Positions 17,319 through 32,213 of a stretch of 32,213 bases of DNA are shown here, piece after piece. The stretch is from Candidatus Colwelliibacteriota bacterium (lineage in GTDB: Bacteria; Patescibacteriota; Minisyncoccia; UBA6257; Colwellbacteraceae): contig JAQULQ010000005.1 of the NCBI GenBank assembly GCA_028718505.1, positions 3,729 through 35,941 of the forward strand, given 5' to 3'. Each line of letters starts with the position of its first letter. Positions within the stretch are counted from its first letter, which is position 1. A program made the position numbers and the translations under genes. Below the pieces are notes generated by a model that ran no database searches, was not told the origin of the DNA, and saw only the letters and a program-made list of their open reading frames with translations.

Positions 17319-18662
17319 CTAAGGGTGAAGACTGATATATGCGCGTGTAATTGGGCCGAAGAAACCAACGCTGGGAATAATGTTATTCGCGATCTGAAAA
17401 CGGGCTAAGGCAGCGCGAGTTAATTCACCAAAGAAGATTGTTTCATTCCCGGGGGATCCGTAACCGGAAGCGGTAAGGATGAAACTGTGAGCATTGAGGT
17501 ACTGCTGCAGCCCCCTAACATCCTCGCCGGTGGAGCCCGCATCGAGATCGCGGGTGAATCTTTGCGCCCCGGAATCGGCGGTCACCGATGCCTGTAAGCG
17601 CGAGAGGAGCGCAACCAGTTTCTCTAACTCTGCTTGCAGCTGCGCCAGTGTCGTCTCCTCTGTATCGGTGGTGTCTTCTGTGTCGGCGGTGTCTTCGGCA
17701 GATTCTTTGGATGCACTGCCGCCGCCCCCGCCCCCGCTGTGATTTTCCTCCTCCTCGACATCATCATCTTCATCAGCGGGCTCAGACGGACTATAGGAAA
17801 TAGAATTAACTGGGTAGCTCTTGCCGACCAAAGCGATAACTGCATACGAGGTAGTAATCGGGCTGAAACCATCTTCTCCCGTTCCCATTTGATATTGGAA
17901 ATATCCTCCTTCAGCTTGCAGGGACAAAAGATGCTCTGTCGGACCGCCAACGCCCTCAATTGCCCAGTCATCAATATCTCCGCCCATAGATGTAACTGCA
18001 GAAATGATCCATGCGTCCGACGAGGCGTCAGAATCGGTTCCCCACATCCCGTGAGGATCGTATGGGAATCCGCCGTCGGCGTTCTGGGCAGACTTTAAGT
18101 AAGCGACGGCGTTCTGGATAACCGTATCGCTGTCGGAAACCCCAGATTCTGTCAGGGCCATAATGGCAGCCGTAGTCATATTGGTATCACTGCCGCCGTC
18201 TATGCTGAATCCCCAACCTCCGTCTTCGTTCTGATTCTGCAGAATAAAGTCTTTTGTGCCGGCAACCGCCGTATCGTCCGACGGCTCTCCGGCTGAAAGA
18301 AACGCTAAAAGCCCGAAGATGTCATCATTTAGAGTAGAGCTGTCCCCCATCTGGCCGTCCGTATAATAGCTTTTCAATTCTTCAATAAGGTTAGTATTAG
18401 AAAATGTTCTCGGATCTTCACCGATGGCAGTTATGGCCAAGATCGGGGCAGCGAATTCTATAGCTGTTGAACCGTCGGTGGATCTAAGGTATTCCCCGCT
18501 TGTCTCCTCTCCAACCGCCGAGAGAGCCATGGTCACCCAGGGATTATCGCTCTGTGCCAGAAGGTAGGCAGTCGCTTCCGCGACACCTGCCTTGGCAGTC
18601 TGCAACGGAAAAATTCCAAGACAGATTATCGGCAGTACGATTTGAATTAATATTTTCTTCAT
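17319..18662 (-). CDS. Secreted protein with prenyltransferase/squalene-cyclase-like alpha/alpha-toroid repeats, Gly/Ser/acidic linker and C-terminal peptidoglycan-binding-like domain
   Basis: Signal peptide MKKILIQIVLPIICLGIFPLQTAKA; repeats LQNQNEDGGWGFSIDGGSDTNMTTAAIMALTESG, LKSAQNADGGFPYDPHGMWGTDSDASSDAWIISAV, LLSLQAEGGYFQYQMG; linker GGGGGGSASKESAEDTADTEDTTDTEETT; C-terminal RDLDAGSTGEDVRGLQQYLNAHSFILTASGYGSPGNETIFFGELTRAALARFQIANNI. Confidence 0.85.
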   Translation of the reverse strand: MKKILIQIVLPIICLGIFPLQTAKAGVAEATAYLLAQSDNPWVTMALSAVGEETSGEYLRSTDGSTAIEFAAPILAITAIGEDPRTFSNTNLIEELKSYYTDGQMGDSSTLNDDIFGLLAFLSAGEPSDDTAVAGTKDFILQNQNEDGGWGFSIDGGSDTNMTTAAIMALTESGVSDSDTVIQNAVAYLKSAQNADGGFPYDPHGMWGTDSDASSDAWIISAVTSMGGDIDDWAIEGVGGPTEHLLSLQAEGGYFQYQMGTGEDGFSPITTSYAVIALVGKSYPVNSISYSPSEPADEDDDVEEEENHSGGGGGGSASKESAEDTADTEDTTDTEETTLAQLQAELEKLVALLSRLQASVTADSGAQRFTRDLDAGSTGEDVRGLQQYLNAHSFILTASGYGSPGNETIFFGELTRAALARFQIANNIIPSVGFFGPITRAYISLHP

Positions 18663-18930: not shown

Positions 18931-18971
18931 GTGATACTTATGCACAGGGAAACAGTTTATGTAAAGAAAGG

Positions 18972-19004
18972 TTGACAATTCAATATAGTTTAACTAAGTT
19001 GAAC
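18972..19004 (+). promoter_or_regulatory. Promoter and tandem operator-like repeats upstream of RHH-Nudix gene
   Basis: TTGACA at 18972-18977; AGTTTAAC (18987-18994) and AGTTGAAC (18997-19004) with 10-bp period covering the -10 region. Confidence 0.5.
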
Positions 19005-19008
19005 CCGT

Positions 19009-19656
19009 ATGAGAAAGACCAAGATAGTCGGATTTTCTATCCCGCCAGCATTACATAGGGAATTCGAGGCCTTAATTAAAAAGGGCCACAAGACAAAAAG
19101 TGAGTTCTTCAGAGAAGTTCTCGCTGTTTATCTAAAGACGTTAGAGTCTGTCGTTCCCGGCAGAGAGAACATCAATGTAAGCGAGCCGGATCTGGCGAAG
19201 GCCCTAAAAATTTATTGGAATCTTAGGTCTCTAGGAGATACTGAAACTATTATCGTCGGCCTTGGCCTTATTGTTAAAGACGGCAAAATCCTGATCGGTC
19301 ATCGGACAGAAAAAGATAAGTGGGTGGAGAATCTAACCTGGGTTTTCCCGGGCGGCAGAATGAATTCTTTAAATTTCGGAGAAGAGATCAAGAAAGAGAT
19401 TAGGAAGAAAACAGGTTTGAAGGTAAAGGTAAACAGCTTAGTGGCAGCCAGGGTTCATCCGGACGCCGGCTTCAAAACAGCCCAAGTGGTAGCCCTTTAC
19501 TTTCACTGCACTCCCCTCTCTGACAAGGAAGCAAAGCCGGGAGAAAAGATGTCTGAATTGAAATGGGTTAAACCCACAGATGTTTTTAAACACTTTACTA
19601 CTTCGACTTGTGACGAAGTAACCGAATTCTTAACGACTCTTGAAAAGGCTTCGTAG
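19009..19656 (+). CDS. RHH DNA-binding domain fused to Nudix-like domain, putative regulator
   Basis: N-terminal MRKTKIVGFSIPPALHREFEALIKKGHKTKSEFFREVLAVYLKTLE (ribbon-helix-helix); TIIVGLGLIVKDGKILIGHRTEKDKWVENLTWVFPGGRMNSLNFGEEIKKEIRKKTGLKVKVNSLVAARVHP (Nudix fold with altered Nudix box). Confidence 0.85.
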   Translation: MRKTKIVGFSIPPALHREFEALIKKGHKTKSEFFREVLAVYLKTLESVVPGRENINVSEPDLAKALKIYWNLRSLGDTETIIVGLGLIVKDGKILIGHRTEKDKWVENLTWVFPGGRMNSLNFGEEIKKEIRKKTGLKVKVNSLVAARVHPDAGFKTAQVVALYFHCTPLSDKEAKPGEKMSELKWVKPTDVFKHFTTSTCDEVTEFLTTLEKAS

Positions 19657-19712
19657 TACCCTACTCCAATTTGGCTGACCCCTCCGGTCTGGTACTCCTT
19701 ACAGAGATCTCT

Positions 19713-19758
19713 GATGATGCTGCCCGACCGCTCGGATGAGTAATCGGGCAGCATCATC
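19713..19758. terminator. Perfect 15-bp inverted repeat between convergent genes, possible terminator (no clear U-tract)
   Basis: GATGATGCTGCCCGA (19713-19727), 16-nt loop, TCGGGCAGCATCATC (19744-19758); flanked by 12-bp palindrome CAGAGATCTCTG (19702-19713). Confidence 0.5.
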
Positions 19759-20092
19759 CAGTCCTACGTTGGCGTCGTGACCAGTCGCTTTGATGATCAG
19801 CTATGACGCTGGTGTAATGTGCTCTTACGAGGGGTATCTGCCGTTCCCGACGTACCCTTCGCCGTTCTCTCTCGGACAATCCCCCCCAGACACCGAACCT
19901 TTGACCGGTGTTTATAGCGAACTCCAAACACTCCTCCCGCACTTGGCATTCTCGGCAGATTACCTTGGCGGATTGCGACGATTTTCCCCTCTCGAGAAAG
20001 AACAAATCAGAGTCGGATCCCCTACAGTTTGCCTGGTCTTGCCATTCCAGGTCGATAGGGGTGAAGGGAAAACCCTCCCAGCCTTCGTCCAT
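19754..20092 (-). CDS. WhiB-family Fe-S transcriptional regulator
   Basis: WQDQANCRGSDSDLFFLERGKSSQSAKVICRECQVREECLEFAINTGQRFGVWGGLSERERRRVRRER: C...CxxCx5C pattern, GVWGG turn and basic tail; GGAG SD before ATG. Confidence 0.93.
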   Translation of the reverse strand: MDEGWEGFPFTPIDLEWQDQANCRGSDSDLFFLERGKSSQSAKVICRECQVREECLEFAINTGQRFGVWGGLSERERRRVRRERQIPLVRAHYTSVIADHQSDWSRRQRRTG

Positions 20093-20219
20093 TTTATCTC
20101 CCTCCCCGAGACAACTTTAGGCTAGACCATTTAGACAATTTTTCAAGCATGTTGCCAGATCAAAGATCCGCGAGTTACATTTTTATATATACGCTCTGGC
20201 CGATCTCTTCGGTCTGGTA

Positions 20220-20948
20220 TTATTGATGGAGTTTCTCTATTTTTTCCCTATCATCAAGTTCTTCTACGAGTCCTATTGCCCAATTAGTTATTGAATCGCG
20301 ATCACTCACGTTTACCCAACCTGGCAGAAATCCTTGCAGATCGGAGATCCCACTAAACTGCGTCGCCATATAACGCTTAGCTATATTGATTTTGGAGATC
20401 AAAGAGTCGTGCATGATACGTCTGCACCGGTCACTATCTTCAACAACCTCCTGATAATCACGAGTATCTAAGGCTTTTGTTCTCGCCGCTCGTTCTACTT
20501 CGTGAATGCTTCTTACATATTTTTTCGCAGCCTCATAGATATCCTGGATCAATTGTCTAGCTGTAACTCTTCGTTCTTCTAGATTAACCGCTTCCTCTCC
20601 GTCGATCTGTAATGTTACGCTATCAATTTCTTTGAGTAGGTTCTCTAACAAAGTTAGGTTGGTGGTTTCTGTCTCTGACCTCCGCTCCGTTGTTTTTATT
20701 TCTCTAGTCGCCCATGAATCGGAAGGATCGATAATATCACCCTTCCCCAGGCCATATTTTGTAGCATCGCGAAAGAATCCCGCTTGTGAACGATTTACGC
20801 CCTCTCGATCATCATCCAAAGACGACACGGTTTCTGCGTCTGTAAATAGATCTTTAGACACTTCTTCCAAATTATATACCGAGCTAAATATACTAACACC
20901 GATCAAACAGGATAAATCGAAGTGCTGGCCTCTTCGTGCTGGAACCAA
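20220..20948 (-). CDS. Hypothetical protein, 242 aa, mostly helical C-terminal region
   Basis: Long ORF; LEERRVTARQLIQDIYEAAKKYVRSIHEVERAARTKALDTRDYQEVVEDSDRCRRIMHDSLISKINIAKRYMATQFSGI; no family assigned confidently. Confidence 0.7.
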   Translation of the reverse strand: MVPARRGQHFDLSCLIGVSIFSSVYNLEEVSKDLFTDAETVSSLDDDREGVNRSQAGFFRDATKYGLGKGDIIDPSDSWATREIKTTERRSETETTNLTLLENLLKEIDSVTLQIDGEEAVNLEERRVTARQLIQDIYEAAKKYVRSIHEVERAARTKALDTRDYQEVVEDSDRCRRIMHDSLISKINIAKRYMATQFSGISDLQGFLPGWVNVSDRDSITNWAIGLVEELDDREKIEKLHQ

Positions 20949-21054
20949 TAATGGTCAAGCTCTGTTTGGCGATTTTAACTAACTTTATGATACCAGAACG
21001 ACCCTCTTCGAGCACGTATAAAAAGTGACAAAAGTGACAGATTTATAAAAAGCC

Positions 21055-22269
21055 CTAATCTCGGTCGTCCGGCTCTATCAAATCCAATTTAACTCGATAA
21101 TATTTAACAGAGACTATATCTCTCACTGCCTCTACCGCAGCGTGTAGTGCAGGCGTGCCTCGGTTCACTATTATAAGGCCGCGCACCCTCTCTTTCTTCG
21201 TCGCAAGATTATTTTTTACCCAGGTTATATAACTAAGTATTTGACCCACAACATCGTATCTAGAAGAGTCCCTTTTGAGTTCTATCACCACAAAATCTCC
21301 ACTTTGATCCTTAGCCAGAACATCTATTATCCCAACATCTGTAGTAAGTTGTTGTCCTGGGGATCCGTCTTCGTCGTAGTAAAGATTAAGTTTCTCTCCA
21401 AAATCAATATTATCCCAATTGCGCACAATGAAATCCTCTAGATACGCTTCGAGTGGAAACTGCATTTCAGTGATAATATGGTGTGCAATAACCTCCTCTT
21501 TCCTTTCGTCTTGAGATGCGTCCTCATCATCTAAATTAGTAATCGTTTTGTGACTACGCTCGTCCGCGATGAGCCTCGCGGTCACATAGATGACGTCCTG
21601 TGCCATCCAACGAAATTCCAGATCAGTAAACTCCAATCCTCGTGTTAGTTGATCACGTAACTTTTGTATTTCGGGCATGGTCTTAAGAGTTTCTCTTAAG
21701 GCATCTATATACTTCGAATAGATTTCATAGCGCTCACCGATTGATGTGCGGTTTGGTATGGAGAAGTCCTCGTCAATGTATTTACAGAACAACGACCATT
21801 CTCTCGGCTTTAATGCGCTCCACAAATCGGGAAAACGAAAACCTAGAAGAAGACTAAGGAATCGTATCCCAATATAGTTGATATGATTCTCATTACGAGC
21901 CTCGTTTCTTAGTTTCATTAAGCCATCAAAGGTGTCTTCTGCGTCGTTAATCCTAGTTCTAATAGCAAGAGTATTATCGAAAAGTTTGCGCAGAGCCCCT
22001 CTGGTTTCGGCTTCAGATTCTCTCGCGAATGTAATAAGCACTCTTTTTGGAAGGTACATGTATCCCGCAACTAAATTGTTATCTTCTATAGCATTCTCCA
22101 ACATCTCTGCTAAATCTGGAGCATCGATGTTAAAGTTTTTCTGGAAAGTATCAACCGCCCTAAATTTATACCCCTCCTCTTCTGTAACGTGCACCTCGGA
22201 ACCGATCTTATCTATGTGTTCAAGATAAAGATCAATCCACTCTTTTGTCTTTTCTTTATTTATCATCAT
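21055..22269 (-). CDS. NucS/DUF91-like PD-(D/E)XK nuclease-domain protein with unassigned N-terminal region
   Basis: C-terminal LEAYLEDFIVRNWDNIDFGEKL...TTDVGIIDVLAKDQSGDFVVIELKRDSSRYDVVGQILSYITWVKNNL with D...ELKR active-site pattern. Confidence 0.8.
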   Translation of the reverse strand: MMINKEKTKEWIDLYLEHIDKIGSEVHVTEEEGYKFRAVDTFQKNFNIDAPDLAEMLENAIEDNNLVAGYMYLPKRVLITFARESEAETRGALRKLFDNTLAIRTRINDAEDTFDGLMKLRNEARNENHINYIGIRFLSLLLGFRFPDLWSALKPREWSLFCKYIDEDFSIPNRTSIGERYEIYSKYIDALRETLKTMPEIQKLRDQLTRGLEFTDLEFRWMAQDVIYVTARLIADERSHKTITNLDDEDASQDERKEEVIAHHIITEMQFPLEAYLEDFIVRNWDNIDFGEKLNLYYDEDGSPGQQLTTDVGIIDVLAKDQSGDFVVIELKRDSSRYDVVGQILSYITWVKNNLATKKERVRGLIIVNRGTPALHAAVEAVRDIVSVKYYRVKLDLIEPDDRD

Positions 22270-22960
22270 TGTTTAGTAGATCCCCTCGACCATTGTGGTA
22301 ATTACACCTCTCACATATACCATTATGTCCGGGATATGGATTATTAAGAAGTTCCACCATATCTTTTAACTTACGCTCTATATTAATGGAGCCGATGTCA
22401 ACCGGATCGATGTGTCCCTCGAATTCTATCGTAATGCTCGGGTTGGTCTTATCTTTGGGATAGTAATGTAGAAGATATGCCCTACTGGACACCTTATGGC
22501 CATGTTCCCTAAACATAAAACCATAGGCGGCTAATTGATCTCTATAGTATTTCTGTTTATCTTCACCCGGTTCATTTCCAGATGATTTATAGTCCGCCGG
22601 GACCAGCGCTCCATTTTTATCCATCAACACATCGTCGATTTTCCCTCGAAGAATATAACCAATTTTTTCATTTATAACCTCAAGGGAGCTTGTGTTCTCC
22701 CTCCACTCATTGAGTTTCTCTATATCTGTGAACGGTTTGATCCCGTCTTTTTCTAAGGCCCTAGTTTCTGGTGGAAAGGTATTCTTCTCTCGATAGCTGT
22801 CGTATCTGTGTTTTAATATTGAGTCCATCGCGGAATTTAAGAGTAGGGGCAACATGGGGGCCCTTTTATAGTGATTTTCCACCCAAAAACAAGATGGGCA
22901 GTCTGTAAATGAATATAAACCACTGGGACTCAACTTCCACAATCCTTCCTTAGTTTTCAT
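22256..22960 (-). CDS. Cas4/RecB-like PD-(D/E)XK nuclease with N- and C-terminal CxxC pairs
   Basis: LSPSGLYSFTDCPSCFWVENHY; LRGKIDDVLMDKNGALVPADYKSSGN; YYRDQLAAYGFMF; GICERCNYHNGRGD. Confidence 0.83.
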   Translation of the reverse strand: MKTKEGLWKLSPSGLYSFTDCPSCFWVENHYKRAPMLPLLLNSAMDSILKHRYDSYREKNTFPPETRALEKDGIKPFTDIEKLNEWRENTSSLEVINEKIGYILRGKIDDVLMDKNGALVPADYKSSGNEPGEDKQKYYRDQLAAYGFMFREHGHKVSSRAYLLHYYPKDKTNPSITIEFEGHIDPVDIGSINIERKLKDMVELLNNPYPGHNGICERCNYHNGRGDLLNNDDK

Positions 22961-23012
22961 CTGACCGTACTTTTATTATTAACAGGGGTGCTTTTTAATA
23001 TATTGATATCAG

Positions 23013-23915
23013 TTAGAAACAAACTATCGGCTCTCTACCGATTTGCTCTGCAAAGTAATTTTCCACTTCTTTATATCCTCCGATCCTATCAATTAAGCCG
23101 TTTTCCAAGGCCATACTACCGAGCATAGATGAACCATCGGCTAATGCCCTAACTTTATTAATATCCAATCCCCTATTCTCCGCCACCACTTTTACAAAAG
23201 CTTCGTGGATAGCTTGCAGATCACGCATAAGTAACGCTTGTTCTTCGATTGTAAGCGGCTTTTCTGGATTAAGCATGTCTTTATATTTTCCCGTACTCAG
23301 ATTGTTGTACGTATATCCCTCTTTCTCGTTGAGTTTGCTTTCATCTATATATGACTGAGTGACACTTATACTCCCTACATCCGAAAGCGCCGAAGCGAAG
23401 ATAACATCGGCTCCCGTAGCCGCCCAATAAGCAGCGGATAGCCCCGCCTCTCTAATTTGAGCCACCACCGGCTTAGTCGCATTCTTAAGAGCGATCGCCA
23501 CTTCTTCTGCGGCTACTGGCGACCCTCCGTATGAATCTATTTCAAGCAAGATGCCCTTTATATCTGGTTCAAGCTCAGCCATTTGAATCTGATAGGTAAT
23601 GTCTTCAGCAGAGGCTTGGTCGGGTGTGCCACCAGTTTCTGGATCGGACGGCAGCGTATATGTATATAGATCTCCGTGTAACGTGATTCCCGCCACATCG
23701 CAGCCAGCATATCCATAGTCTTCCGTGGATCCTCCGCCCACTTCTTCGGAGGAATACCCAGAGTCACCAGTGTCTACATTCCAAATATAAAAGTCATACC
23801 AGAAGGCGCTGATAGTTAGTACAACCACGATCCAACCTAGTGTTTTCCAAACCTTCTGGAAACCAACATCTTGCCAGATCGACTCGGGTAATTTAGTCAT
23901 GTGTATATCCCTCAT
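23013..23915 (-). CDS. SppA-like S49 family serine peptidase, single N-terminal TM anchor
   Basis: TM WKTLGWIVVVLTISAFWYDFYIWN; IKGILLEIDSYGGSPVAAEEVAIALKNATKPVVAQIREAGLSAAYWAATGADVIFASALSDVGSISV; LSTGKYKDMLNPEKPLT; candidate Ser and Lys catalytic residues present. Confidence 0.87.
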   Translation of the reverse strand: MRDIHMTKLPESIWQDVGFQKVWKTLGWIVVVLTISAFWYDFYIWNVDTGDSGYSSEEVGGGSTEDYGYAGCDVAGITLHGDLYTYTLPSDPETGGTPDQASAEDITYQIQMAELEPDIKGILLEIDSYGGSPVAAEEVAIALKNATKPVVAQIREAGLSAAYWAATGADVIFASALSDVGSISVTQSYIDESKLNEKEGYTYNNLSTGKYKDMLNPEKPLTIEEQALLMRDLQAIHEAFVKVVAENRGLDINKVRALADGSSMLGSMALENGLIDRIGGYKEVENYFAEQIGREPIVCF

Positions 23916-26706
23916 TCTTAAGTTCCCTTAATATCGAATCGACTTGTCCCTCAATTTTCTTATCCTGTTTAATCTTCAGGCCGATTTTATTGAATGCAAA
24001 AAGAGCCGTAGTGTGATCACGCTTGAAAGCATTTCCTATAGATGGAAACGATAGTCCTATGACGCTACGAGCAAGATACATTGCTAATTGTCTTGCCTCA
24101 GCGATCTGTGCTTGGCGACCTCGACCCTTAATATCTTTGACACTAACACTCGTGTTTTTTGCTACTACCTCAATTACTTTTTCAATGGTTGTCTGAATTC
24201 TGTTCTCTTGCTCTTTAATGTAATCTACTGGATGAGACTTATGTTCAGATCTTTCAACTCCATCTCCATACTCTTTCTTAAGTGCGGCATTGATTATCTG
24301 TCTAATCCTTTCTCGTGTGAGATTAAACTTTCTAGCTATTTCCTCTAGTGTATGTGAATATTGGTCATTGAGCCCAAATCTCATCTCTATCATCTCTATT
24401 TCTCGATTACTCAATTCACCCAATAGATCTTTGCCATAAAGACCAGTTCTTACCTCAGCTTCCTTAAGCTGACCCTCTTTCCTCAAGTCCATAGAAGATT
24501 TTTCTTCGACAAAATGTTTATAAATTGAGGGGCCAAGTTCATATTTATTTTGAGAAATGTAATAGAGAACATCGTAGTCGGATCTTTTGGGCAATGTTCC
24601 TTTTTGTATCGCTTCTGGGATAGCTACATTAAGTACTTCATTAAGTATTAACTCAGCCAAATAAAGTTGTGCCGTTGTCGATTCTTCTAGATCAGATTTC
24701 TTAGGGTTCTCCCCGAAATATTTAATATTAACCGGATGATTCGGGTTTACGAGTATAAAGCCGCACGTTGGACTTTCTTGGTATGGGTCATATGTCGCCT
24801 GGAATGGTTTAGTGACCTTCTCGTCAAAATCCCACCCCCTAAATTTACCCACTAGTCCACTGGGATTTTTCGTAGACCGACTTCTTATATCAACCCTGGC
24901 TTGTGCGGAATAATCTCTACATAGCGCATCGATAACTCCAGATTCGCCAGTTTTTTCACCCACAAAAGCCACCGGTAATCGCACAATTGTTCCGTGTCGC
25001 CAATACCTATTAGACAACACCGCCTCCTCCTCTTTTAGTTTTATATATTTATTCGAGCTCATAAATTTGATCTCGTCACCGTTTTTTATAAAACGGGTGT
25101 CAATAAATAGCCACAACGTACTTTCACGATTTTCAATTGCCCGGAAATAATCTGGACTGAAAGCAATGCCGTTGTCCGGGTAAAATATGTCTAAATAGAT
25201 AACAGACACGACTACCGACGTCTTTCTTCTTCCAGATATTGCTTCAATTGTGTCTACGGTATTAGCCTTTGCACCGAATATGGTGATCGTTTTTACTAAA
25301 AGACCGTCCATTTTCTCGTCCGGCTTCTTGATCAGTATTGACTCAGGAGAAAAGCCAACATTCTTCCTTGTAGAATTGATAGTAACAATTGATCCCGGTT
25401 TGATAACCCGCGTATCTATTACAAGTTGAAGTCCGTATTTTTTGTTAACCGTAACCTCTATTTTGTTTCTGGCAAACTCTATACCCCCCGCTGGTCTTTT
25501 CTTAACGGGCGCCCGAATTGTTCCGTGTGTGCTTTCTCCGGTAAGTTGTGAATAGAATTTGTTGAGTTCGTCGAATGCTAATTTGTGTTTTTCTCGCGCC
25601 GCCTCTGAAAGACCATCATCTCCGTGTTTCTTACGCTCCCTGCTTATGATTGGATATAACCAATCTTTAATTATTTGTTGTAAATTTTTGTAGAATTCGT
25701 GTTGTTCATTAAAGCCGTCGCGAGTATCTAATAAGATTTCTTCTGGATGTTTCTTGTTAATTTTATCAAGAATTATTTCTCTGGCTCCCGTAAGCTTCAT
25801 AAAACCATAATATTTATCTGATCCCGGAAGACCGTCTAAACCGAAAAATGTTTGATCATAGACGGTACCCTTGTCGTCATAAACCAAAAGACCGCTTTCC
25901 TTTTCATCGCCGACCACAGAAAGAGATTCATCAGATTTATATAAGTCTACATCTATCTTTACCGGAGGATATTTCTCGAATGTCATCTCAAATTCTCTAT
26001 GATCATCGATCGGTTCTCCCTTCGGAAATGTATATTTAATAATTGATTGCCTTGCTCTTCCTCTCGAATCAATGTGCTGCAAAATAACGCTCCTATTGGC
26101 ATCTGAATTAATTAACTTGATCGCATAAAAACTACTAAGTTTGGCGGCTAAATGACTATACTCATGCAGGACGGTGTCCTTATCGGCGATAAACTCTATG
26201 ATTGTTCCACGGAAATTGTTTATTCCCCACTTCTTTGCTATCTGATCGATATCGCCATTAACGTGTTCGGCACTAATAAACCTCTTCTCCTTCTTCTCAT
26301 AAAATCTACAAATGGATGCTCTTCCATCCTTAATTGATTTAATTACTCCACTAGAGTGATAAAAAAGAACATCAGAAACGCCCTGTCCGAAAAGTCCTCT
26401 CACTCCATATCCCTCGTAGGCACCACTTTTCCCCGCACCGTAAACTCTGAACTTATCTTCCAGGTCCTCTTTTGTCATGCCCTCGGCATGATCTATTATT
26501 TTTACCAATCTATTTCTTTTATCTATTTGGACGATAATCGGTGATGGACTTTCAGCTTTGTCGTCGCCCTTCGCGGACAGAATACGATAACTATCGTCAG
26601 AGTTTGTTATGGGTTCGGTCAGGGTTTTGAGAATGTTTTTCCCGACCGCATTAGAGCTTTTTCTTCTGATATAACGAGGGGCGATTCTTACCTCAATTTC
26701 TGACAT
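23893..26706 (-). CDS. GHKL/HSP90-like ATPase, sigma-70 region 4-like HTH and DnaA domain IV fusion protein
   Basis: N-terminal LTEPITNSDDSYRIL...IIDHAEGMTKEDLEDKFRVYGAGKSGAYEGYGVRGLFGQGVSDVLF (N box, G1, G2-like); aa about 765-813 LSNREIEMIEMRFGLNDQYSHTLEEIARKFNLTRERIRQIINAALKKE; C-terminal aa about 851-937 VKDIKGRGRQAQIAEARQLAMYLARSVIGLSFPSIGNAFKRDHTTALFAFNKI. Confidence 0.9.
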   Translation of the reverse strand: MSEIEVRIAPRYIRRKSSNAVGKNILKTLTEPITNSDDSYRILSAKGDDKAESPSPIIVQIDKRNRLVKIIDHAEGMTKEDLEDKFRVYGAGKSGAYEGYGVRGLFGQGVSDVLFYHSSGVIKSIKDGRASICRFYEKKEKRFISAEHVNGDIDQIAKKWGINNFRGTIIEFIADKDTVLHEYSHLAAKLSSFYAIKLINSDANRSVILQHIDSRGRARQSIIKYTFPKGEPIDDHREFEMTFEKYPPVKIDVDLYKSDESLSVVGDEKESGLLVYDDKGTVYDQTFFGLDGLPGSDKYYGFMKLTGAREIILDKINKKHPEEILLDTRDGFNEQHEFYKNLQQIIKDWLYPIISRERKKHGDDGLSEAAREKHKLAFDELNKFYSQLTGESTHGTIRAPVKKRPAGGIEFARNKIEVTVNKKYGLQLVIDTRVIKPGSIVTINSTRKNVGFSPESILIKKPDEKMDGLLVKTITIFGAKANTVDTIEAISGRRKTSVVVSVIYLDIFYPDNGIAFSPDYFRAIENRESTLWLFIDTRFIKNGDEIKFMSSNKYIKLKEEEAVLSNRYWRHGTIVRLPVAFVGEKTGESGVIDALCRDYSAQARVDIRSRSTKNPSGLVGKFRGWDFDEKVTKPFQATYDPYQESPTCGFILVNPNHPVNIKYFGENPKKSDLEESTTAQLYLAELILNEVLNVAIPEAIQKGTLPKRSDYDVLYYISQNKYELGPSIYKHFVEEKSSMDLRKEGQLKEAEVRTGLYGKDLLGELSNREIEMIEMRFGLNDQYSHTLEEIARKFNLTRERIRQIINAALKKEYGDGVERSEHKSHPVDYIKEQENRIQTTIEKVIEVVAKNTSVSVKDIKGRGRQAQIAEARQLAMYLARSVIGLSFPSIGNAFKRDHTTALFAFNKIGLKIKQDKKIEGQVDSILRELKNEGYTHD

Positions 26707-26716
26707 GGTAGCCTAT

Positions 26717-27367
26717 CTATTTAAATAGATTTGCAAACCTTTTTTCTATCCAACTTAAAAATTTGATGGTTTGTCCACTCTTCGCGATTACGGCAGCTCG
26801 CTTGAGTTGTTCGAGATATTCGACTAAGAGATGGTGCGGGGTATATGGTACCGCCTTCAGAAAGGCCAATACTTCATAGTCCGTTATTTCATAATTCCCA
26901 CCACACCACTTCTGAAATAATTGCGATTCAATGATTTCTGTAACGTCTTGTTCAGAAGATCTCCCCCTCGATCGTCTAGATATAACATGCTTCTTCTGTC
27001 GACTCGGGGTTTTTAATAAGTTCTCTGTCTGCATTGCCATCTCTTTCCCTAAATCCGTAATATAGAAACCGGTTTCAATACTACCCGTTGCCCAATTTTT
27101 TCTTCTGGGGTCAACCAATCTTCTAAGGGACTTATTTATTCGATTCGTGTCGGGGTAGATATTGAAACTTGCCATCGAAAACTTTGTGGGGAACATTTTA
27201 AAAAGACTGACTGATATATAATCCCAATAAAGTGGGATCTTCTTTTTTTCTAGAATCGACATCGCAAAAATAGCCAACCTATCTAAGTCCAGATTTTTAT
27301 AACTTTCCGGGGGCAGAGGACGTAAACCTAAAACAAGTTTATCGACCTTGTCTTCGCGCTTAATCAT
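26717..27367 (-). CDS. Hypothetical protein, 216 aa, possibly winged-helix DNA-binding
   Basis: Long ORF in operon; RINKSLRRLVDPRRKNWATGSIETGFYITDLGKEMAMQTE resembles a wHTH region; overlaps upstream gene by 4 bp. Confidence 0.7.
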   Translation of the reverse strand: MIKREDKVDKLVLGLRPLPPESYKNLDLDRLAIFAMSILEKKKIPLYWDYISVSLFKMFPTKFSMASFNIYPDTNRINKSLRRLVDPRRKNWATGSIETGFYITDLGKEMAMQTENLLKTPSRQKKHVISRRSRGRSSEQDVTEIIESQLFQKWCGGNYEITDYEVLAFLKAVPYTPHHLLVEYLEQLKRAAVIAKSGQTIKFLSWIEKRFANLFK

Positions 27368-27594
27368 AATTTGAACTCTCTCTTCTTTTCTCTTTGGCCA
27401 CGCTGAAAGGCTGCTTTTGAAACCCTTGTAGCGCCATCGATAGCGCTAAATATTTTATGTACTTCTGTGTCGGAATAACTGTACAGCGAAGTATTGGAAA
27501 GATTGCTTAAAATACGAAGGTCCTCAAGGACTCGAGTAACCCTTTTCTCAGCAAGCTCCCTGAACTTTCTATTCTTTTCTTCCTTCCTGTTCAT
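27364..27594 (-). CDS. Small 76-aa protein of unknown function, first gene of operon
   Basis: MNRKEEKNRKFRELAEKRVTRVLEDLRILSNLSNTSLYSYSDTEVHKIFSAIDGATRVSKAAFQRGQREKKREFKL; ATGA-type overlap with next gene; near-consensus promoter upstream. Confidence 0.75.
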   Translation of the reverse strand: MNRKEEKNRKFRELAEKRVTRVLEDLRILSNLSNTSLYSYSDTEVHKIFSAIDGATRVSKAAFQRGQREKKREFKL

Positions 27595-27603
27595 AGTACG
27601 GCT

Positions 27604-27647
27604 ATTATACTCTCGCAGAATATTCTGTCAAGTATTCTGTGAATACT
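27604..27647 (-). promoter_or_regulatory. Near-consensus sigma-70 promoter overlapped by palindromic operator-like sites
   Basis: Minus strand TTGACA (27631-27626), 16-bp spacer, TATAAT (27609-27604); palindromes CAGAATATTCTG (27616-27627) and AGTATTC-tgt-GAATACT (27631-27647); ATG only about 9 nt after -10. Confidence 0.75.
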
Positions 27648-27797
27648 CACGGGAATGCTGATGATAGAAGATAAAAGGCGCAATCGATTATCCTAAGTAG
27701 ATCTACTGCTGAGGTGACTTTAAAAAGACCATCTCGGCGTAGATTTGCGTTCACAACGTATATTTCCCGTTTTTAGCGTTGGGGATTAAGGCCATTT

Positions 27798-27817
27798 TTT
27801 CGACCTAATTTCGACCT
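27798..27817. repeat. Two 9-bp direct repeats TTTCGACCT with 11-bp period
   Basis: TTTCGACCT at 27798-27806 and 27809-27817. Confidence 0.6.
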
Positions 27818-27930
27818 TCGCCACATCTTTACCGCACAAATACGGGCTTATTTGCCCTGAAAAGTTATCCCCACAGATGGGTAGGTGTTGGGATTTTTTT
27901 ATTCATTTATAAAGATCACAATTTATATGT

Positions 27931-29214
27931 ATGAAAGAGGAACGATTAATTTGGAAAACGGAGAGTCGTATAGTTAACGATCTTCTCCCCTACTCCGAAA
28001 ATCCACGACGGATGTCAGATAAGCAGATCGAAGGCCTTAAAAAGAGCCTCAGGCGGTTCAATCTAGTCGAAATCCCCGCGATAGACAAAGACAACAGGAT
28101 AATCGCAGGTCATCAACGCATAAAGGCGCTCCAGCTACTCGATCGTGGCGAAGAATCAATCGAGGTGCGTGTGCCCAATCGTAAACTCACCCAAAAGGAA
28201 TACGAGCAGTATCTCTTAACCAGTAACGCCGTAATTGGCGATTGGGATTACGAGAAACTTAAGCTCTTTGATTTAGATTTTTTGGTAGATGTTGGTTTCG
28301 ATCCAATAGAAATTGCCCCGTTTTGGGACAAAGACGCAGAAGTAATAGAAGAGAACTTCGATGTGGAGAAAGAGCTTAAGAGGATTAAAGAAGTCCAGAC
28401 TAAGCCCGGTGATCTAATCATTCTCGGTAAACATAAATTAATTTGTGGAGATTCGACCAACCTTGATGTTCTCGCGAAGCTTTTTGGTGAGGACCGGGCC
28501 TCTATGATCTATTCTGACCCGATCTATAACATAGACATCGATTACAACGGGGGCATAGGCGGCAAACAGAACTATGGCGGTTCAGTAATCGACAGCCGTA
28601 GTGATCAGGAATACAGGGACTTGATAAAAAGCTCCTTGGTTAATGCCCTCGCCTATTCTAAAGAGGACGTCCACGTCTTTTATTGGTCAGATCAGACCTA
28701 TATCTGGCTCATCCAAACCCTCTATAAGGAATTGGGCATCCAGAATAAGAGAGTGTGTCTATGGATTAAAAACGGGCATAACCCCACTCCCCTCGTAGCC
28801 TTTAACAAGGCCTACGAGCCATGTACGTATGGAGTACGAGGAAGACCGTACATTGCTAAAGACATTCAAAACCTGAATGAAGTAATGAATAAGGAAACGA
28901 CTACTGGCAACAATATGCTGGACGAGATAAGTGACATCTGGGCAGTAAAAAGACTGGCGGGTAGAGATTACGAACATGCCACATCCAAACCACCTCAATT
29001 ACACCAGAAAGCCATTCTACGTTGCACTAAGCCGGGCGATATTATTCTCGACAGCTTCTCTGGGTCAGGTAGTACCCTAATCGCCGCAGAACAATTAAAA
29101 AGAAGGGTCTATGCGGTTGAGCTTGAACCCGTATTCTGTGATCTCACGATTAGAAGATTCGAAAAGCTGACTGGCTTGAAAGCCGAAGTAATGCGTGGTG
29201 ATGAAAAAAGATAG
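27931..29214 (+). CDS. ParB-like N-terminal domain fused to DNA (adenine-N6 or cytosine-N4) methyltransferase
   Basis: LLPYSENPRRMSDKQIEGLKKSLRRFNLVEIPAIDKDNRIIAGHQRIKALQLL (ParB/Srx); SMIYSDPIYNIDIDYNGGIGG (DPPY-like); DIILDSFSGSGSTLIAAEQLKRRVYAVELEPVFCDL (AdoMet motif). Confidence 0.93.
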   Translation: MKEERLIWKTESRIVNDLLPYSENPRRMSDKQIEGLKKSLRRFNLVEIPAIDKDNRIIAGHQRIKALQLLDRGEESIEVRVPNRKLTQKEYEQYLLTSNAVIGDWDYEKLKLFDLDFLVDVGFDPIEIAPFWDKDAEVIEENFDVEKELKRIKEVQTKPGDLIILGKHKLICGDSTNLDVLAKLFGEDRASMIYSDPIYNIDIDYNGGIGGKQNYGGSVIDSRSDQEYRDLIKSSLVNALAYSKEDVHVFYWSDQTYIWLIQTLYKELGIQNKRVCLWIKNGHNPTPLVAFNKAYEPCTYGVRGRPYIAKDIQNLNEVMNKETTTGNNMLDEISDIWAVKRLAGRDYEHATSKPPQLHQKAILRCTKPGDIILDSFSGSGSTLIAAEQLKRRVYAVELEPVFCDLTIRRFEKLTGLKAEVMRGDEKR

Positions 29215-29632
29215 ATTAGCTAAAAAGTTTCTAGAAGAACTATCTGAGGTGCCGATAGTTTCTGATAGCTGTGAAAAAGTTGGAATATCGAGGAATACGC
29301 CATACAGATGGCGAAGAGAAGATCCTGTTTTCTCGAAAGAAATGAGTCGAGCGATGAGTATGGGCGTGAATCACGTAAGCGATTTAGCCGAAAGTAAGCT
29401 GATACAAAAAATCCAGCAAGGAGATATGGCTGCTATCAAATATTGGTTAAATAATCGCAAGAGGAACTATGCTCGTCCGCGTCCTAAAGATTATTGGGAT
29501 ACAAAAAGAATTGAGGGGAACATTATCCAGCTTGTGGATATGAGTAGAGATACTGCAAAGAAAGAGAAACGACTAGAAGAACTGGAGAAGAAATACGGCC
29601 ACTTGATGCCAGAGGAAGATTCAAAAGATTAA
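29201..29632 (+). CDS. HTH protein resembling phage terminase small subunit
   Basis: SDSCEKVGISRNTPYRWRREDPVFSKEMSRAMSMGVNHVSDLAESKLIQKIQQGDMAAIKYWLNNRKRNYARPR; ATG at 29201 preferred over GTG at 29195; overlaps methyltransferase end. Confidence 0.65.
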   Translation: MKKDRLAKKFLEELSEVPIVSDSCEKVGISRNTPYRWRREDPVFSKEMSRAMSMGVNHVSDLAESKLIQKIQQGDMAAIKYWLNNRKRNYARPRPKDYWDTKRIEGNIIQLVDMSRDTAKKEKRLEELEKKYGHLMPEEDSKD

Positions 29633-29741
29633 CAGAGCTCCTTTTCCCCTATCACAGACTCTTTGTTTTGCTAAGCCCGTCTGCCAACAAGTTGTCAACG
29701 ATCCTAATTTACTCCTGGTGGGGATCTGTCATCCATTAGAT

Positions 29742-31079
29742 ATGGATACACAAATAAGCGCCCTCACCAGCGACAAAGTGGTTATACCAGTACCAAAGGT
29801 CAAATACTGCCTATACGCCCGTAAAAGCACCGAATCTGACGAAAAACAGGCCCTTTCCATAGACTCCCAGGTAAAGGAGATGCTCCAGATAGCTGAACGG
29901 GATGAGCTGGATATAGTAGATATCCGGAGAGAATCTCACTCAGCTAAGGACTCAGCCCAAAGGCCAGTATTTGAGGAGATCCTTAGAGATATAAGGTCGG
30001 GTAGATACACGGGAATCCTTACCTGGGCTCCCGACAGATTGAGTCGTAATGCTGGAGATTTAGGGAGTCTAGTCGATCTTATGGATCAAAAAAGCCTCAT
30101 TGAGATACGTACCTTTGGACAGATATTCACCAACTCCCCTAGCGAGAAGTTTCTCCTAATGATTCTCTGTTCGCAGGCAAAGTTAGAAAACGATAACAAG
30201 AGCGTGAATGTGAAGCGTGGACTTAGGGCTAGATGTGAAATGGGATTATGGCCAGCACCAGCTCCTACCGGCTACCTCAACGAAAAGAGAATTGATAGGA
30301 AGGGATATGTATTAATAGACGAAGAACGAGCACCTATCGTCAAACAAATATTCGAGAAAGTAGCTAATGAGAAATGGAGTGGACGTAAGCTCTATAACTG
30401 GCTTAAGTTCGATCTTAATTTTAAAACTATTGGGAATAAGAATTTTACTCTGGGGAACATATATACACTGCTAGACAATACTTTCTACTACGGTACTTTC
30501 GAGTATCCTAGGAAGAGTGGAAATTGGTATGCGGGTAAACACCAACCGATTATTACCAAAGAACTTTTCGATCAAACGCAAAAGCAGGTAAAAAGCCAGT
30601 TTGTGAAATCTGAGGGTAAGGAATTTGCCTTTACTAAATTAATGACCTGCGGACTGTGTAAGTCGGGGATCACTGCTGAGGAGAAATTCAAAAAACAGAA
30701 GAATGGCAATATCCATCGATATGTTTATTACGTCTGTGCTAGATCGAAAGATAGGAATTGCAAGGGTGGATATATTAATGAGAAAGATCTCTTAATCCAA
30801 TTTGAGAACCTTATTGAAAAAATAGATATTGATGAAATTGGTATAAGGGGGAAAATAAGAGCAGAGGTAGAAAGATTTAAGAAGTTCCAACAGGTTCTCT
30901 TGGGAAGAAAAGAAAAGATTCAAATAGAAGAAATAGATATTCGGAACTATGCTAAGTATCTCCTAAGAGAAGGGATGGATGTCGAAAAACGAGAACTACT
31001 CGGGTGCTTAAAAAGCAGATTAACATTAAAAGAGGGGGCTGTGTTCTTAGCTCCTGGGGATAAATTTGAGAGTGTATAA
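29742..31079 (+). CDS. Large serine recombinase (resolvase + recombinase + zinc ribbon domains)
   Basis: YCLYARKSTESDEKQALSIDSQVKEML, ILTWAPDRLSRNAGDLGSLVDLMDQ, FLLMILCSQAKLENDNKSVNVKRGLRARCEMG, CGLCKSG...YYVCARSKDRNCKGGYINEKDL. ORF track begins at GTG 29718; ATG at 29742. Confidence 0.95.
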   Translation: MDTQISALTSDKVVIPVPKVKYCLYARKSTESDEKQALSIDSQVKEMLQIAERDELDIVDIRRESHSAKDSAQRPVFEEILRDIRSGRYTGILTWAPDRLSRNAGDLGSLVDLMDQKSLIEIRTFGQIFTNSPSEKFLLMILCSQAKLENDNKSVNVKRGLRARCEMGLWPAPAPTGYLNEKRIDRKGYVLIDEERAPIVKQIFEKVANEKWSGRKLYNWLKFDLNFKTIGNKNFTLGNIYTLLDNTFYYGTFEYPRKSGNWYAGKHQPIITKELFDQTQKQVKSQFVKSEGKEFAFTKLMTCGLCKSGITAEEKFKKQKNGNIHRYVYYVCARSKDRNCKGGYINEKDLLIQFENLIEKIDIDEIGIRGKIRAEVERFKKFQQVLLGRKEKIQIEEIDIRNYAKYLLREGMDVEKRELLGCLKSRLTLKEGAVFLAPGDKFESV

Positions 31080-31100
31080 TGTTATAATTTCATCATCTGT

Positions 31101-32213
31101 ATGAGAAAAATTGCCCCACAGGAATTGAAAAAAACGTCGATCCCCTTCACCTTCCCCGAAGAACCTACTGCAATTATTAAAGAGCTTAGGAATTACCTAG
31201 CCGGTAGAACCTCCGGTATTAGTCGCGATGAAGCACTTCTTGAAGAAGTTCTCAAGGTACTCTTCTGTCTTATAAATTTCCCACAAACGAAACTGCCTGA
31301 GGAAGAATTTGAAACAGCAAAAGAAATTCGGGCTGAATTTTCTAGACTCAAAAGCAAACTTAACGGCTTTTACGGCTCCGATGAAGAGATATTACTTGAT
31401 CCCAAGTCAATTCAATACGTTGCAGAGGGCCTTCGCAAAATCTTGAATAATATGAAGAGGGAGATCGACATCGTTGCAAATCTATATCAAGCATTTATTG
31501 GGGGAAGTATTAGAGGACAAGAAGGTCAATTCTTCACACCGCGAGTGGCTGTGGACTTTCTAGTTAAAGCAGTTGGAGTCAAAAGTAGTTGGAAAGTTAT
31601 AGATACCGCTTGTGGAGCATGTAGCTTCCTTACTCGATCTTATACGCAGGTGCTCAAGAAGGAGGGACCAGAGGAGGCCAAAAACTTTGCGAAGAAGAAT
31701 CTCTTTGGGATTGAGAAAGATGAGAAATTATCCAGATTGGCCAGAATTCATCTATATGTCCTTACCCAAGAACTCGGCAATATCAATAATGCAGACTCCC
31801 TATTAATAAAGAAGGGGTATTTAACCAACATAAGGGATGGGGATTTTGACTTAGTTATTACAAATCCACCCTTTGGCGCACGTATTAAATCCGCTGACGA
31901 AGAGACTTCGTCCAAGTATGAGCTCGGTCACAAATGGGAGAACAGGGATGGTAAGCTCGTAATGACAAGTCGGGTGGTTGAAAATACTCCTCCTCAGGTT
32001 CTATTTATGGAAAGAAATGTGCGAGCCCTGAAGCCAGGAGGGATGCTCGCGACCGTTATCCCTGAGAGTTTAGTTTCAAACGAGAATTACAAGAGTGTAG
32101 TTAATTATCTCTTAAGGAATACTTCCATTGAAGCAATAATTGGAATGCCCGAATCACTTTTTAAAACTTCCGGGAAGGGCGGCACCCATACAAAAACTTG
32201 CCTTTTAATCGCC
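31101..32213 (+). CDS. N-6 DNA methylase (HsdM/type I RM-like), 3' end cut by window edge
   Basis: Not in the ORF track (runs off the end). Manual translation MRKIAPQELKKTSIPFTFPEEPTAIIKELRNYL...LYQAFIGGSIRGQEGQFFTPRVAVDFLVKAVG...VIDTACGACSFLTRSY...DFDLVITNPPFGARIKS. Confidence 0.9.
   Translation, partial: MRKIAPQELKKTSIPFTFPEEPTAIIKELRNYLAGRTSGISRDEALLEEVLKVLFCLINFPQTKLPEEEFETAKEIRAEFSRLKSKLNGFYGSDEEILLDPKSIQYVAEGLRKILNNMKREIDIVANLYQAFIGGSIRGQEGQFFTPRVAVDFLVKAVGVKSSWKVIDTACGACSFLTRSYTQVLKKEGPEEAKNFAKKNLFGIEKDEKLSRLARIHLYVLTQELGNINNADSLLIKKGYLTNIRDGDFDLVITNPPFGARIKSADEETSSKYELGHKWENRDGKLVMTSRVVENTPPQVLFMERNVRALKPGGMLATVIPESLVSNENYKSVVNYLLRNTSIEAIIGMPESLFKTSGKGGTHTKTCLLIA

Follow-up and report, generated by a model that had tools for sequence, protein, structure and literature searches.

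Do six genes that lie in one run on the minus strand of a Candidatus Colwelliibacteriota contig form a single dedicated system, or do only some of them belong together? The locus is part of a 32,213-nucleotide stretch of contig JAQULQ010000005.1 (assembly GCA_028718505.1, positions 3,729 to 35,941), which we analyzed as a whole and refer to as the window. The third gene encodes a fusion of a GHKL ATPase with sigma-70 region 4 and DnaA domain IV, and the original prediction, made from the letters of the DNA, regarded all six genes as one candidate defense or replicon-control system. The conserved core is smaller and comprises only p76, p216 and the GHKL ATPase; the six genes together are not conserved as a unit. 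We favor the reading, with a probability of roughly 0.58, that the locus is a paraMORC-like GHKL conflict module, directed against phages or plasmids, that resides on a serine-recombinase island and uses exchangeable effectors.

The fusion and its conserved core

All six open reading frames (ORFs) were found where they had been predicted, in the order of transcription:

27364..27594, minus strand: p76, first gene of the operon; a small protein, putative general GHKL ATPase partner
26717..27367, minus strand: p216, a predicted winged-helix protein, constant partner of the window GHKL family
23893..26706, minus strand: the fusion; GHKL ATPase and transducer, beta-rich middle, sigma-70 region 4, DnaA domain IV
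23013..23915, minus strand: S49 peptidase with one membrane helix; apparently exchangeable cargo
22256..22960, minus strand: Cas4-like PD-(D/E)XK nuclease, an additional copy from a family common in patescibacteria
21055..22269, minus strand: NucS_C-like PD-(D/E)XK nuclease, related to the phage-defense candidate PDC-S02

Spacings along the operon, from p76 to the NucS-like gene, were recomputed as -4, +10, -23, +52 and -14, identical to the overlaps (4, 23 and 14 bp) and gaps (10 and 52 bp) given originally.

The fusion protein consists of a GHKL domain with its transducer (amino acids (aa) 1 to about 390), a beta-rich middle (about 405-655), sigma-70 region 4 (Sigma70_r4, aa 761-811, E 2e-11) and DnaA domain IV (Bac_DnaA_C, aa 841-908, E 7e-23). 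Pfam thus supports both tail domains as predicted; the GHKL part gives a weak Pfam match (E 0.038) and is supported by motifs and fold. The N, G1 and G2 boxes are intact (N35, D72-x-A-x-G76, G104..G109, T168) and are kept in 32 members, and the predicted fold of the N-terminal part resembles the ATPase-transducer structures of GyrB/ParE and Hsp90 (Foldseek, E about 1e-11 to 1e-12). With these boxes and a Bergerat fold, the fusion is a GHKL ATPase. HATPase_c_3 scores below its curated Pfam cut-off for the window fusion, as it does for genomes G313 and G108. By its GHKL and transducer parts and its restriction-modification (R-M) and nuclease neighbors, the window GHKL protein is paraMORC-like.

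Three other identities were considered and rejected. The fusion is not a strict MORC, its GFMKLTGAREI having K and E at hydrophobic positions of the S5 motif GhXhhpXXRhl. It is not a sigma factor, as it contains region 4 and no region 2, nor a DnaA initiator, as it contains domain IV and no AAA+ domain III. No function in replicon control, the other role predicted originally, was found. Sigma region 4 of the fusion is 50-60% identical to region 4 of the host RpoD, and in a tree whose support is limited for so short a domain, the domain IV sequences of the fusions group outside patescibacterial DnaA.

The fusion was searched for in 384 genomes of the class and in a scan of 84,980 species genomes. 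It matched in four genomes of the class, its own genome counted, and fusions with the sigma4-DnaA_IV tail are present in four patescibacterial species. Those of the three further patescibacteria (L039 = L036, L040 and L041 = L037) are 37-55% identical to the window protein, and the order p76-p216-fusion is the same at all three loci. In each of these three genomes the fusion is a single uninterrupted ORF (932-963 aa), so it is not an assembly accident. None of the three loci has the S49, Cas4-like or NucS-like gene. The co-occurrence that the original prediction named as a check is therefore absent elsewhere for the six genes, but the fusion never occurs alone and always has p76 and p216 alongside. 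At L041, a DUF4268 gene lies 3' of the fusion and matches PDC-S11 (4e-124); nothing comparable follows the fusion at L039 and L040.

Outside these species, no relative was found on viral contigs, which were scanned with the fusion, with the alignment of its GHKL part and with the second fusion described below. Among the matches listed for tblastn searches of phages and plasmids, only DnaA and sigma-factor regions appeared, covering at most about 20% of the fusion query. Similarly, among the matches listed for the sigma4-DnaA_IV pair in 380 patescibacterial genomes, only the two from this assembly cover both domains; nearly all others listed reach little past domain IV and belong to DnaA-sized ORFs.

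The second fusion of this assembly is on contig C16 (L034, 3696-8682), in an element that adjoins tRNA-Asn and carries a methylase, a terminase-like helix-turn-helix (HTH) protein, a serine recombinase, a p76 homologue (43% identical to window p76), the fusion (677 aa) and a trypsin-like protease. Its GHKL part is a true MORC: GFNLYRYKRLI conforms to Iyer's motif and Morc6_S5 matches. BLAST aligns the two fusions in the tail only (27% identity); profile comparison indicates a distant overall relation. The same tail on two GHKL families suggests domain shuffling. Because the assembly is mixed, C16 may derive from another strain.

The three downstream genes of the window look like exchangeable cargo. 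As predicted, one encodes an S49 peptidase (Pfam E 1e-30; membrane helix at aa 26-44, candidate catalytic Ser160/Lys210) and two encode nucleases. Of 40 relatives, three gave matches to the S49 gene, and one of these matches is inside an unrelated element. The Cas4-like protein (PDDEXK_1, Pfam E 2e-13) is an extra copy of a family found in 29 of 41 patescibacterial genomes; it was rejected as a CRISPR Cas4, since no cas gene is present among the scanned window proteins. The NucS-like protein (NucS_C, Pfam E 2.5e-8, aa 309-369) matches PDC-S02 in PADLOC and is not a true NucS, as only NucS_C matched and no N-terminal NucS domain did. Its full-length relatives have neighbors that were named by eye: a type I R-M system at L180, an AbiEii-like gene at L181 and, at L182, a large ORF. 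A serine protease follows GHKL on its 3' side in three settings, namely S49 in the window, the trypsin-like protease on C16 and an SDH/ClpP-class protease at L091.

Partners p216 and p76

The predicted structure of p216 (predicted local distance difference test score 92) gave winged-helix matches only in a fold search, none with a significant E-value; four p216 members have HVO_A0261_N matches. Together with a GHKL protein that lacks the tail, p216 is encoded in a cassette of two genes at 29 further loci, which range from Bacteroidota to Chloroflexi; overall, the p216-GHKL pair is kept in 32 loci from many phyla. The L053 locus has sigma region 4 in a gene of its own, directly 3' of p76-p208-GHKL. 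The protein that this gene encodes (L053, 3228-4988) has 586 aa and is weakly MzaA-like. At L063 (7005-10879), the p216-GHKL cassette apparently sits between two halves of a DNA methylase gene.

The p76 family has no significant match in Pfam, NCBIfam, PADLOC or PDB sequences. It is present in ten other genomes of a sample of 380 patescibacterial genomes, and in nine of these ten a gene with GHKL motifs comes next after p76, or next but one past a p216-like gene. A GHKL or GHKL-motif gene also follows p76 in 9/10 of the plasmid regions examined; the exceptions are genome G661 and a Vescimonas plasmid. About half of the patescibacterial and plasmid regions have Dcm, Vsr or restriction endonucleases next to p76. 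Relatives of p76 on viral contigs are mixed, some with a GHKL-motif protein downstream and others without one. The GHKL proteins adjacent to p76 are of several types: HATPase_c_3 scores above its curated Pfam cut-off beside p76 in C16, G523 and G329. As profile tests failed for the PDC-M33-like proteins, these were counted as GHKL by motif only; a related "KDAIQNSWDA" family matches them at 98.5%.

p76 may be an overlooked member of PDC-M33-type candidate systems (PADLOC). A p76-type gene precedes M33A on plasmids and M33A-like proteins in patescibacteria, and PADLOC matched PDC-M33A on a p76-linked GHKL-motif protein, as well as PDC-S11 downstream of the G329 fusion. The window differs from PDC-M33 in its GHKL-motif family, and the DUF6339 and ~290-aa partners are absent from it. 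At L140-L148, L187 and L193, on plasmids and in patescibacteria, p76 stands before PDC-M33A-like or other GHKL-motif genes, several of them with DUF6339, and Dcm or Vsr genes lie beside it.

The promoter and a proposed mode of action

A strong operator-bearing promoter had been predicted at the head of the operon, and we found a perfect sigma-70 site with a palindrome and, next to it, a DnaA-box-like site:

27604..27631, minus strand: operon promoter TTGACA-16-TATAAT, a 12/12 sigma-70 match
27638..27646, minus strand: DnaA-box-like GTATTCACA, a candidate target of the fusion's own tail, 6 nt upstream of the -35

No other 12/12 site is present in the 8 kb scanned, and the palindrome CAGAATATTCTG overlaps both the spacer and the 3' end of the -35. 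A pattern common to the window and C16 promoters, T.TTCACAG.A..C-TTGAC, precedes a 16-nt spacer and a good -10; in each of the two, an 8/9 DnaA-box match is found upstream of the -35, at a distance of exactly 6 nt (the C16 promoter was scored by hand because its -10 is at the edge of the scanned stretch). At L041, TTATCTACA is found 9 nt upstream of TTGACA. Thus, three of the five fusion promoters have a DnaA-box-like site 3-12 nt upstream of the -35. The background frequency is 1.6% among 1112 sigma-70-like sites, so that three of five would occur by chance with a probability of 4e-5, and none of 11 promoters of tail-less p76 loci has such a box (Fisher p = 0.018). A box next to the -35 fits a protein with adjacent domains that read -35 and DnaA-box DNA. 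This association is a lead rather than proof, because the test was set up post hoc and its two best cases belong to related elements of one assembly.

Several described systems make a working mode of this kind plausible. As the parts of Iyer et al. 2008 (PMC2292703) drawn on here describe, prokaryotic MORC and paraMORC GHKL ATPases occur in R-M operons; they resemble the window in combining GHKL with an S5-type transducer, in having methylases nearby, in their sporadic mobile distribution and in their variable C-terminal extensions. In contrast to them, the window fusion lacks the strict MORC motif that the C16 fusion has, and the same parts of that paper make no mention of p216 and p76 partners or of a sigma4-DnaA_IV tail. 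For the MZA system (mzaABCDE), PMC9523054 describes mzaA, next to the MZA genes, as a sigma factor. The pairing of sigma-type MzaA with the MutL/GHKL protein MzaB resembles that of sigma region 4 and GHKL here; the C16 GHKL scores to MzaB (PADLOC) and the window tail to the sigma4 stretch of MzaA, whereas in the window sigma region 4 is fused to GHKL and joined by DnaA domain IV. The locus was not assigned to MZA, as the Z1 and AIPR partners were not found among the scanned window proteins. Finally, VcSduA is a GHKL-nuclease that requires both its ATPase and its nuclease residues against phage (PMC12137116). This VcSduA/paraMORC3 Shedu couples a GHKL ATPase to a PD-(D/E)XK effector, as does the window, where the nucleases are separate genes and DUF4263 was not found.

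We infer a defense role for the module from these sequence relationships and suggest the following mode of action. The sequence itself establishes the gene content, the conservation of the core, the ATPase fold and the island setting: a sigma-70 region 4 and DnaA domain IV tail has been added onto a conserved core of p76, p216 and an ATP-binding GHKL-transducer protein. The GHKL protein would dimerize on ATP and close as a clamp under the control of p76 and p216, and the tail could place this clamp on -35-like and DnaA-box-like DNA, that is, on promoters or origins of incoming replicons. Binding of the fusion to its own promoter would also make its expression self-limited. Engagement may then license the downstream effector: in the window the S49 membrane protease and the two PD-(D/E)XK nucleases, on C16 the trypsin-like protease, and in another species the DUF4268 (PDC-S11) nuclease. 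Bacterial R-M and defense loci widely contain GHKL/MORC-type ATPases whose trigger is mostly unknown; a built-in reader of -35 and DnaA-box DNA points to a specific, testable one. A conflict module of this type would be an undescribed addition to those of patescibacteria.

More tentatively, and with odds well short of even, p76 could be a general, so far unnamed partner of several unrelated defense GHKL families, the patescibacterial ones of which captured host-like sigma4 and DnaA domain IV as a tandem tail that senses promoter/origin DNA of invaders, with feedback on their own DnaA-box/-35 promoter. A small partner common to several GHKL types would offer a handle on all of them.

Several results weigh against the conflict module and its proposed trigger. 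Two of the five fusion promoters, those of L039 and L040, have no DnaA-box-like site, in addition to the limits of the box test given above. The PDC-M33A-like and related neighbors of p76 were assigned to GHKL by their N-box, G1 and G2 motifs only, an assignment that profile tests failed to confirm. The window GHKL and p216 families match no PADLOC model, the sigma4 tail excepted. Enrichment of defense genes in the neighborhood, the second check proposed originally, was assessed with PADLOC around p216-GHKL in other phyla (98 near and 60 far proteins): defense genes were not clearly more common within 2.5 kb than beyond 4 kb. What stands of the predicted defense island or mobile-element module is the mobile-island setting and the kinship with defense-type GHKL ATPases; a six-gene system does not.

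Of the alternatives, island maintenance or competitor exclusion survives best, and we consider it rather unlikely. The fusion would regulate the element's promoters, replication or partition, or block related elements, and the protease and nucleases would be passengers. The DnaA-box-like site in the element's own promoter fits this idea, as does a tail whose only domains are DNA-binding ones of a host-like replication and transcription type. In this assembly, each of the two fusions has a related serine recombinase, a terminase-like protein and a methylase as neighbors, but no recombinase is present within the several kb retrieved around the L039 and L040 fusions, and the tail-less p216-GHKL cassette occurs in many phyla without the window recombinase. 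The link of p76 to R-M genes also speaks against maintenance.

The sporadic occurrence of the fusion (4/384 genomes of the class), its location on a low-GC strain-variable island and the matches of its partners to defense candidates make a housekeeping-like stress or transcription regulator improbable. Such an Hsp90/MORC-like chaperone would be brought to RNA polymerase through sigma region 4 and tune host genes, with no conflict role; the similarity to the host RpoD of that region, which could contact RNA polymerase, and the lack of clear defense enrichment around p216-GHKL agree with it. Least probable is the six-gene operon as one dedicated defense system with S49 and both nucleases obligate: the tight overlaps, the single strong promoter and the serine proteases that also follow GHKL on C16 and at L091 would suit it, but the other fusion loci lack these three genes, whose relatives live elsewhere and separately.

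The island and its other genes

The recombinase, a serine recombinase, and DNA methylases predicted as neighbors of the operon are present, on an island with the following features:

18952..32213, no strand: strain-variable island; left edge is the end of homology with contig C21
27931..29214, plus strand: N6_N4 DNA methylase, divergent from the operon, on the island
29195..29632, plus strand: small-terminase-like or transposase-type HTH protein
29718..31079, plus strand: large serine recombinase; the C16 element has one 56% identical to it
31101..32211, plus strand: N-6 DNA methylase, cut by the contig end

Contig C21 (L222) carries a 74-82% identical copy of window positions 13.6-18.95 kb, probably from a related strain, so that the assembly (577 kb, 7% contamination) probably mixes related strains. 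Past the end of homology, C21 continues with a purA-like gene and the window with NUDIX, WhiB, DUF3232 and the operon genes. Because homology with C21 stops there, we place the operon on a strain-variable island starting near 18,951. GC content is 0.417 in the island and 0.494 in the flank. The window represents one end of its contig, which breaks within the N-6 DNA methylase; the right end of the island is therefore outside the contig.

In the N6_N4 methylase, the methylase domain (aa 191-406) comes after a stretch of about 165 aa that appears ParB-like by eye, an architecture of phage type. The left edge of the island carries a fusion of ribbon-helix-helix and NUDIX domains (19009-19656, plus strand), followed by a WhiB-family protein (19754-20092, minus strand; Pfam E 1.1e-24). 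Proteins of the WhiB family are otherwise characteristic of actinobacteria and of the phages that infect them. A DUF3232 protein (20220-20948, minus strand) lies between WhiB and the NucS-like gene, on the operon strand. To the left of the island, a squalene-hopene-cyclase-like toroid domain is fused to a peptidoglycan-binding domain (17319-18662, minus strand).

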